This document shows positions 3,553-9,237 of a DNA stretch of 28,172 nt, piece after piece. Below the pieces are notes generated by a model that saw only the letters and a list, made by a program, of their open reading frames with translations, did not search any database and had not been told where the DNA came from. The stretch's first letter is position 1; every line of letters begins with the position of its first letter. The translations under genes were made by a program, and so were the position numbers. The DNA comes from a virus: positions 1-28,172 of the IMG/VR virus record IMGVR_UViG_3300025449_000729. One strand, 5' to 3'.

Positions 3553-3627
3553 GGCCCTATGGCAGATTGGTTATGCAGGCGCTTCTAAAACGCTGTGAAG
3601 CAGGTTCGATTCCTGTTAGGGTCACCA
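3553..3627 (+). tRNA. tRNA with CTA (amber) or expanded-loop TCT anticodon
   Basis: Acceptor GGCCCTA/TAGGGTC, D arm with GG, T-arm GCAGG/CCTGT, discriminator A and CCA are good. Standard numbering puts CTA at positions 34-36, which would read UAG. However pair 31-39 is C-A, so the loop can be the nine bases CTTCTAAAA, which begins with the exact loop of tRNA-Arg(TCT). Arg with an expanded loop is therefore an alternative. TAG is used as a stop by at least five genes here. Confidence 0.7.
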
Positions 3628-7069: not shown

Positions 7070-7144
7070 GCGGGTGTAGCTCAGGGGTAGAGCTTCAGTT
7101 TTCCAAACTGACTGTCGTGGGTTCGATTCCCATCGCCCGCTCCA
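7070..7144 (+). tRNA. tRNA-Gly (TCC)
   Basis: Acceptor GCGGGTG/CGCCCGC, anticodon stem TCAGT/ACTGA with loop TTTCCAA, T loop TTCGATT, discriminator T, CCA encoded. Very similar to tRNA-Gly (GCC) at 5680, so the two may have arisen by duplication. Confidence 0.93.
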
Positions 7145-7146
7145 AA

Positions 7147-7270
7147 ATTCAACAGGCAGTGTAGTAATAACGGTCATGGGTCGCTCTCATGGCGAGGTCG
7201 GGGAGGCGGAGCCTCATAACCTTGGAAACCCGTGCACTGAAAAGAGGATGCATACTCGTTCCTGTTGAAT
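7147..7270 (+). ncRNA. Structured RNA with 10-bp closing stem
   Basis: ATTCAACAGG (7147-7156) pairs perfectly with CCTGTTGAAT (7261-7270). Inside, CAGTG (7157-7161) pairs with CACTG (7235-7239), and ACGG (7170-7173) with CCGT (7230-7233). The core then holds two hairpins: TCGC/GCGA (7181-7195) and GAGGC/GCCTC around GGA (7203-7215). A small GAG/CTC hairpin lies on the 3' side. No ORF crosses it. It begins two bases after tRNA-Gly and precedes the HNH gene. I recognise no known family; it is too short for GOLLD and lacks RNase P or tmRNA marks. Confidence 0.65.
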
Positions 7271-7342: not shown

Positions 7343-7885
7343 ATGTGGAATTGTAAACACTGCAATAACGACTTTAGTTTCACAAGAACTACTGAAAAAG
7401 CTAATCATTCTCGTCATTGTGATTCTAATCCTAACAAACGTATAAGTTATTCTCGCAACAAAGAAATACTTATGCAACGTTTAGATAACAAACTTGGTAA
7501 ATATGAAACCTATCATGTTAGTTGCCAAGGTTGTAGTAAGACTTATGAAGTTAAAGAAAGGTCAGGATCTTTTCCTTCTAAAAAATATTATTTTTGTTCT
7601 AGGAGTTGTGCCAATTCTGTAGGTGGCAAAGCAAAAGCTGAAAAATATCACTATGATGAGGTTGCTACATATACTACTGTAGCATGGAGATACCATGAGA
7701 AAAAATGCATAGCTTGTGGTGAAGATAAAATTGTTGCAGTTCATCATTTAAATGAAATACATTCAGATAATGATCCAAAAAATTTAATACCACTATGTCC
7801 TACTCATCATCAGTATGTACATAGTAGATATAAGTATCTTGTTGAAGATAAAATTAATTTATATTTGAAAGAAAAATGGGGCTAG
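7343..7885 (+). CDS. HNH homing endonuclease with zinc fingers
   Basis: 180 residues after an AGGAG ribosome site. The N-terminus is a C2HC zinc-finger pattern (Cys4, Cys7, His22, Cys26). A second cluster has Cys61, Cys64, Cys85 and Cys89. The HNH nuclease is at about 122-162: CIACGEDK, VHHLNEIH with His134/His135, Asn147, and CPTHHQYVH with His155/156 and His160. The stop codon lies 8 bases inside tRNA-Ala. The gene has a late promoter and a possible ribosome-site hairpin. Different in layout from the HNH protein at 2953, so this is an independent arrival. Confidence 0.85.
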   Translation: MWNCKHCNNDFSFTRTTEKANHSRHCDSNPNKRISYSRNKEILMQRLDNKLGKYETYHVSCQGCSKTYEVKERSGSFPSKKYYFCSRSCANSVGGKAKAEKYHYDEVATYTTVAWRYHEKKCIACGEDKIVAVHHLNEIHSDNDPKNLIPLCPTHHQYVHSRYKYLVEDKINLYLKEKWG

Positions 7886-7969: not shown

Positions 7970-8152
7970 ATGTCTGATATTGATAATGATCCAAGATTTG
8001 TTCAAGCATTTTGGGATTGGTTTGATAGTCTACCAATAGAACAAAAAGAGTTCTATTGGAACATGAAAGCTGACATGGCAAAGATATATTTTTATAATAA
8101 ATTCTATAAAGGTTCTAAAAAAAATGCAGATAGTAAGCGCAGCAGGAGTTAA
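7970..8152 (+). CDS. Hypothetical 60-residue protein
   Basis: Begins 13 bases after tRNA-Ala with a weak AAAGG site. The first 40 residues are acidic and aromatic; the last 15 are strongly basic. The end overlaps the acetyltransferase gene by 29 bases, which suggests translational coupling. No family recognised. Confidence 0.6.
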   Translation: MSDIDNDPRFVQAFWDWFDSLPIEQKEFYWNMKADMAKIYFYNKFYKGSKKNADSKRSRS

Positions 8153-8549
8153 GGTTGAATATGCACTATCATCTATAATGAATATTGAACAAGCATCTTT
8201 TGCTGGAGATTATATCACTATCGATGACTTCAACGAACATTATGAAAGAACATATCTTCTGTTAGATATAGATCAAAATATTTTAGGGTATTATATGTGG
8301 TACCCACAAAATGACAATCAAGCATATCTTTACAGCATTGCTATTGATAAATACCATCAGGGCAATGGTTACTCTAAATTGATGTTAGAACATTTCTTAA
8401 CTGTTAGTGGTTACAATACTCATTGTTTGCACGTCAATCCTAGTAATACAAAAGCTATGCACCTTTATTCTAAGTATGGGTTTGTTCAAACTCAATTTAT
8501 CGAAAACTTTTATGAAGATGGGGCATCTGCTGCGTTAATGTTTAAGTAA
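8124..8549 (+). CDS. GNAT-family N-acetyltransferase
   Basis: 141 residues. The central part has the GNAT acetyl-CoA site: strand YLYSIAIDKYHQGNGYSKLMLEHFL, where Q-G-N-G-Y matches the Q/R-x-x-G-x-G/A loop, followed by LHVNPSNTKAMHLYSKYGFVQ, the typical last motif of RimI-like enzymes. It is predicted to transfer an acetyl group to an amine on a protein or small molecule. The start at 8124 overlaps the preceding gene. A later in-frame ATG at 8178 would cut off the first strand, so I keep the early one. Confidence 0.8.
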   Translation: MQIVSAAGVKVEYALSSIMNIEQASFAGDYITIDDFNEHYERTYLLLDIDQNILGYYMWYPQNDNQAYLYSIAIDKYHQGNGYSKLMLEHFLTVSGYNTHCLHVNPSNTKAMHLYSKYGFVQTQFIENFYEDGASAALMFK

Positions 8550-8550
8550 G

Positions 8551-9237
8551 ATGAAATACAAAATAGTCCATTTGTTTGGAAACATAGATGATTATGACCT
8601 ACAAACTTATAGATTATTATTGGATCCAGAAGACACCAAAGAGAGTGAAATTCTCGATAACGGCTGGTACGTGTTTGATGGCCGTTGGCTAGCAAATCGT
8701 CTTGTAAGATTAAAACTTTCACAGTACACCAAAGAACCTAAACAAATTAAAGGTTATAGATTTGTCTTTAAAGAGCGTTTGGATGATTTGTCAGAAGTTG
8801 AAAGAGTATTTCAAACTTTCATTAAGCTAAAGGGCCTTAGCCCAATTTATAGCCTTGGTTGTGATCCAGAAAGAGCCTCGTGGCTATTGGTGTATAAAGA
8901 TGATACACTTGTTGCATTTACAAAATTTACAAACTATGATGGTGCTTTAGAAAGTCAATTTACAGCTTGGGATTATTCAGAACCAAAAATATCACTGGGT
9001 GTAAAGATTGTTGACTATGAAGTTAAACACGCAAAAGAAAAAGGATATCCTTATCTTTATATTGGTCCAGGATATGGCACGATTGCCACATATAAATCAA
9101 GGTTTCAGGGGTTTGAGTGGTGGACAGGATCAGAATGGTCTAATGATGTAGATAAATATGTCGAAGTTTGTAACAGAGACTCTTCTATCGAAACACTTGA
9201 GGATCTCAATAGATTGTTTAATGATTTAAATGCATAA
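8551..9237 (+). CDS. Ate/Bpt-like (aminoacyl-tRNA transferase fold) protein
   Basis: 228 residues. The segment from SLGVKIVDYE to YLYIGPGY, then YKSRFQGFEWW (about 148-192), closely follows the C-terminal GNAT-fold domain of arginyl/leucyl-tRNA-protein transferases (pattern SLG...AKE.G..Y.YLG...YK..F.P.E). Those enzymes move an amino acid from aminoacyl-tRNA to a protein N-terminus. The N-terminal Cys-rich part of real Ate enzymes is not visible, so the acceptor may differ. It sits directly after a GNAT gene and before a tRNA, with one base between the first two genes. Confidence 0.65.
   Translation: MKYKIVHLFGNIDDYDLQTYRLLLDPEDTKESEILDNGWYVFDGRWLANRLVRLKLSQYTKEPKQIKGYRFVFKERLDDLSEVERVFQTFIKLKGLSPIYSLGCDPERASWLLVYKDDTLVAFTKFTNYDGALESQFTAWDYSEPKISLGVKIVDYEVKHAKEKGYPYLYIGPGYGTIATYKSRFQGFEWWTGSEWSNDVDKYVEVCNRDSSIETLEDLNRLFNDLNA

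Follow-up and report, generated by a model that had tools for sequence, protein, structure and literature searches.

The window analysed here is a 28,172-nt stretch of viral DNA, positions 1 to 28,172 of the IMG/VR record IMGVR_UViG_3300025449_000729. On its plus strand, ARAGORN places a tRNA-Gly (TCC) gene at 7070-7144, and an HNH endonuclease gene, recognised by matches to PHROG HNH families, lies at 7343-7885. Between these two genes there is an intergenic element of 124 nt (7147-7270, plus strand), whose closing stem begins 2 nt past the CCA encoded by the tRNA-Gly gene; the ORFs overlapping it are all short chance occurrences. Elsewhere in the window, a tRNA with a CTA anticodon (3553-3627), called Pyl by ARAGORN and probably an amber suppressor, adjoins a tRNA-Gln(CTG), and positions 8551-9234 encode a protein with a match to the C-terminal domain of arginyl-tRNA-protein transferase (ATE_C), which is odd in a phage.

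The RNA strand of the element has a minimum free energy of -44.8 kcal/mol, against -34.1 ± 3.6 kcal/mol in dinucleotide shuffles (z = -2.9; none of 200 shuffles was as stable), and all six of its stems have high pairing probability. All of them are formed by the plus strand. A perfect 10-bp closing stem, P1, joins 7147-7156 (AUUCAACAGG) to 7261-7270 (CCUGUUGAAU), and stacked on it is the 7-bp stem P2 (7157-7163, CAGUGUA, with 7233-7239, UGCACUG). Enclosed by P2 are the P3 hairpin (7173-7193, GUCAUGGG-UCGCU-CUCAUGGC) and an inner hairpin at 7194-7223, which holds P4 at its base (7194-7198, GAGGU, with 7219-7223, ACCUU) as well as the P5 hairpin (7203-7215, GAGGC-GGA-GCCUC). An H-type pseudoknot pairs 7199-7202 (CGGG) with 7229-7232 (CCCG). 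Finally, an AAAA linker (7240-7243) leads from P2 to the P6 hairpin (7244-7257, GAG-G[AUGCAU]A-CUC), whose loop carries the palindrome AUGCAU at 7248-7253. The initial annotation had described a non-coding structured stretch of 124 bases with a perfect 10-bp closing stem, nested stems and at least two inner hairpins; its coordinates proved to be base-exact and the fold was as described (P1, P2 and the hairpins at 7173-7193 and 7194-7223), while the pseudoknot and the third small hairpin with its palindromic loop had been missed.

An exact 25-mer of the element led to two IMG/VR contigs carrying the same element behind tRNA-Gly, without the HNH gene; in the first pair, AAC/GUU of the closing stem is replaced by GGU/ACC, a fully compensated change. 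A search with an 18-mer added a third sequence. The model R1, built from three sequences, together with a scan with a neighbouring RNase H-like protein, then yielded further diverged members. An 18-mer from the 3' part matched 45 contigs, a second pattern, avoiding the 3' hairpin, matched 81 contigs, and a third one, with the loop left open, contributed a few extra members. The resulting family comprises 81 distinct members, all of them in IMG/VR contigs of uncultured phages, with lengths from 113 to 241 nt (median 147). R1 recovers all 81 (the whole window element scores 155.7 bits), two of them weakly (E of 0.09 and 0.19), both being backed by pattern and by the model R2; R2, in turn, finds 29 members outside its training set, each at E <= 5e-11. 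Since members were gathered by sequence patterns, the family is at least as widespread as shown here, and its conserved letters partly reflect how the members were selected.

Outside this set, the RNA was not encountered. With Rfam 15, at gathering and at permissive thresholds, only tRNAs match in the window and only chance hits fall on the element itself, in agreement with the earlier claim that it fits no known RNA family; by ARAGORN or Rfam, the element is neither a tRNA nor a tmRNA. When the element and seven diverged members were compared by BLAST with 50,697 phage records, no credible match came up, nor did the window element yield one among plasmids. Of the two patterns scanned against 84,980 prokaryote genomes, one had no hits and the other only two, both by chance within coding DNA, and R2 finds nothing in cultured relatives (DLP6, X1, RcXuper and others), in T4, or in 26 IMG/VR relatives. 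Nor did we find the motif described in the literature searched, where the RNAs GOLLD and ROOL surfaced.

The proposed structure is strongly supported by covariation, the absence of which in the stems of homologous loci had been one part of what would refute the initial annotation. Across 40 aligned members and 35 proposed pairs, 97.8% of cells are paired, compared with 76.3% in shuffles and no more than 41% in slid controls; a pair list with P3 shifted by one column still gave 91.8%. Changes on both sides occur in 27 of the 35 pairs, amounting to 284 cells against 72 in shuffles, and the covariation score of 0.580 compares with 0.161 ± 0.010 for shuffles and no more than 0.125 for slid controls. 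The sequences of P1 and P2 are free to change, with compensation (both-side changes in 8/9 aligned pairs of P1 and 5/7 pairs of P2), G-U pairs being tolerated in P2. P4 is 100% paired, with both-side changes in 3/5 pairs and covarying variants GAGGU/ACCUU, GUGGU/ACCAU and GAACU/AGUUU. Similarly, the pseudoknot is 100% paired and changes on both sides in 2/4 pairs, with the compensatory variants CGGG/CCCG, GGGG/CCCC, UGGG/CCCA and GAGG/CCUC. Both-side changes were also seen in 3/4 basal pairs of P3, the apical part of which varies in length, and in all three stem pairs of P6. P5 rests on the fold, its sequence and length varying among members; the lengths of P3 and P5 differ by tens of bases. 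The last three A residues of the linker are invariant (40/40). It should be kept in mind that the model to which the alignment was fitted had itself been built from members; it comprised nested stems, but neither the pseudoknot nor the palindrome. Overall, at the sequence level, the element represents a structured phage RNA family, absent from Rfam 15 and previously undescribed in the literature searched; its expression was not observed.

Turning to genomic context, 31 of the 81 members begin 0-9 nt behind a tRNA, whose identity varies widely (Gly, Ala, Met, Asn, Ile, Ser, Val and others), while in 16 a tRNA follows downstream at 4-11 nt. A tRNA is found within 100 nt in 41 members, and 28 loci have no tRNA. 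All 48 tRNAs located within 50 nt lie on the same strand as the RNA, and none on the opposite one. The idea that the RNA is made from the tRNA-Gly transcript thus receives indirect support only, from strand and from the 0-9 nt spacing in 31 loci, and transcription itself remains inferred. The HNH gene, before whose promoter the RNA had been proposed to end, turned out to be an unlinked neighbour outside the RNA system: next to the RNA, L001 has tRNA-Leu and L004 another ORF instead, and L044 has the HNH gene without the RNA. No recurrent neighbouring protein was found over the 81 loci, the best family being common to at most nine of them.

L044 and L029 barely differ in the region of tRNA-Gly and HNH, yet the RNA is missing from L044 as a single clean unit. 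In L030, a tRNA-Ala sits directly behind tRNA-Gly. No R2 match was obtained in several large contigs of 159-174 kb that contain the neighbouring RNase H-like gene. The clean empty site in L044, along with absence from related large contigs, indicates that phages gain and lose the RNA as an accessory gene. The model found one copy in each of 27 of the 28 records searched, the missed record holding a low-scoring member. We conclude that this accessory gene stands alone, is present in a single copy, and is acquired or lost as one unit. In L022 (2600-2690), only the initial 16 bases (P1-P2; AUUCAACAGGCAGUGU) of the RNA are left, joined to a sequence that resembles a tRNA and has CAT as its anticodon; this remnant is a decayed copy, which apparently arose by recombination at the common AGGC(A)GTGT. 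A direct repeat, CCCAACCATACACACCAAGCGAGAGCATGCGCGGCT, occurs on both sides of the RNA in L186 (7900-8060). One 182-kb RNA-bearing phage contig (L151) also carries a tmRNA as well as a match to the abiF RNA (RF03085); the two stretches concerned are 1516-1552 and 8054-8488 (minus strand).

One might suppose that the element acts in cis, as a riboswitch, a translation element or a signal for processing, either governing the next gene or keeping tRNAs apart. In favour of this, an ORF starts 7 nt past P1 in the tRNA-free loci L111 and L113 and 18 nt past it in L004, and a terminator-like run of at least five T follows P1 in 12 of 77 members. However, the downstream item differs from locus to locus, being a tRNA (16 loci, within 11 nt), an unrelated ORF, or a terminase-like gene on the opposite strand. 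The last arrangement is found in six tRNA-free phages (L099, L110, L114, L120, L130 and L156), where some 30 nt separate the RNA from the 3' end of the convergent terminase-like gene, whose leader it hence cannot be. Moreover, no downstream gene family recurs, the constant leader position expected of a riboswitch is missing, and the palindromic loop would have no role in cis, so we regard a cis-acting element as unlikely. Even less probable, in our opinion, is a small ribozyme, self-cleaving or other, aiding the cutting of tRNA transcripts. The compact pseudoknotted fold, the conserved unpaired core and the tight packing against tRNAs speak for it; against it, no Rfam ribozyme family matches, P1 closes the entire molecule, and tRNAs are missing from the vicinity of many members.

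The most peculiar feature of the family is the P6 loop, whose hexamer is self-complementary in all 81 members, in nine sequence forms: AUGCAU (52), GUCGAC (8), AGCGCU (7), CUGCAG (7), UGCGCA (2), CGGCCG (2), and UGGCCA, GUGCAC and UCGCGA (one each). A 6-mer is palindromic by chance with a probability of 1/64, and elsewhere in the alignment 6-mer windows are palindromic in 36% of cases at most. For members collected with the second pattern, the palindrome cannot be an effect of selection, because that pattern leaves the loop untouched; the members from loop-independent collection have eight loop sequences, all palindromic. When similar RNAs are clustered into 53 groups, palindromes other than AUGCAU represent 24 of them.

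It might be argued that the palindrome is a site at the DNA level, serving protein binding or replication, instead of an RNA contact. Six-base palindromes are indeed common protein targets on DNA, and longer dyads exist in some members (8 nt in 10/81). Yet the palindrome sits precisely within a hairpin loop borne by a covarying stem (3/3 pairs), the bases on either side of it mostly do not complement each other (G and A in 59/81), P2 tolerates G-U pairs, and the strand is fixed relative to tRNAs, all of which makes this explanation hard to defend. As the loop palindrome is unable to pair inside one molecule, a second molecule must impose the constraint, i.e., it is a covariation between molecules, and the single copy per record leads us to infer that this partner is another copy of the same RNA. 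Homodimerisation through a P6 kissing loop is thus very likely, being inferred from sequence with no dimer observed. The plain AUGCAU duplex is the weakest (-4.7 kcal/mol, against -7.5 to -10.7 kcal/mol for the other palindromes), so that dimerisation in the cell is not certain.

Taken together, we favour, with a probability of roughly 0.72, a reading in which the element is a stand-alone phage RNA gene co-transcribed with tRNAs, whose trimmed product acts in trans as a homodimer; transcription, trimming, dimerisation, trans action and a host target are all inferred. In this scenario, the RNA would be co-transcribed with tRNA (or other early-gene) transcripts and then trimmed out. The mature molecule, about 115-240 nt long (124 here), would be closed by P1 and would consist of a P1/P2/P6 junction and a P3/P4 core, the latter being held by the H-type pseudoknot, and two identical molecules would pair via the six-base palindrome of the P6 loop into a symmetric homodimer. 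Most likely, the dimer would be a trans-acting accessory factor which, in the infected cell, displays the conserved core in two copies to a component of the host. The trans role and the host target are deduced by exclusion and rest on no positive result. It is tempting to go further and imagine a self-recognising homodimer working in trans, e.g., by countering host defences or hijacking a host complex, which spreads among unrelated phages and lodges in tRNA operons; to this bolder version we would give about an even chance.

Several known RNAs invite comparison. GOLLD and ROOL are phage and prophage RNAs, often found near tRNA islands, that form homo-oligomers via conserved intermolecular contacts including kissing loops (PMC12286853). 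Like them, the new family is phage-encoded and often tRNA-adjacent, self-assembly here being only predicted from the loop palindrome. Unlike GOLLD and ROOL, which reach ~660 and >800 nt, its members are short, falling outside the 600-900 nt or so of that class, and differ in sequence; the Rfam covariance models of the two do not match the family, and its one palindromic contact would give a dimer, not a cage. By analogy, the family may work as a compact counterpart of GOLLD and ROOL, belonging to neither, its function being inferred. What is new, then, is a compact tRNA-island phage RNA with putative dimerisation by a palindromic kissing loop; the setting and self-assembly as such were already known from GOLLD and ROOL.

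The HIV-1 DIS makes RNA homodimers through a palindrome of six bases, which sits in a hairpin loop between mostly unpaired purines; dimer motifs of RNA have been reviewed (PMC7357161). The DIS hairpin lies within a viral RNA genome, whereas the new loop is an arm of a stand-alone RNA of DNA phages. Another phage RNA of similar size, the phi29 pRNA, oligomerises through loops; it forms a ring by two different complementary loops and has no such pseudoknot. Apart from tRNA, no Rfam family matched in the window, and no direct homology comparison with pRNA was made. The T4 RNAs rnaC (139 nt) and rnaD (119 nt) are likewise small stable phage RNAs adjoining tRNA genes, a parallel already drawn in the initial annotation. 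It holds as a positional analogy only: the T4 record yields no hit to the family model, the rnaC and rnaD sequences carry tRNA-like ends, and homology was rejected.

Natural homo-oligomeric RNAs are rare, GOLLD, ROOL and OLE being recent examples. With the family described here, the link between tRNA islands and self-assembling RNAs would appear in a second size class, if the inferred self-assembly is correct. The RNA is small enough for easy synthesis and crystallisation, and its nine natural palindromes are ready-made swap variants. The family offers a direct test of the benefit that such RNAs may bring to phages.
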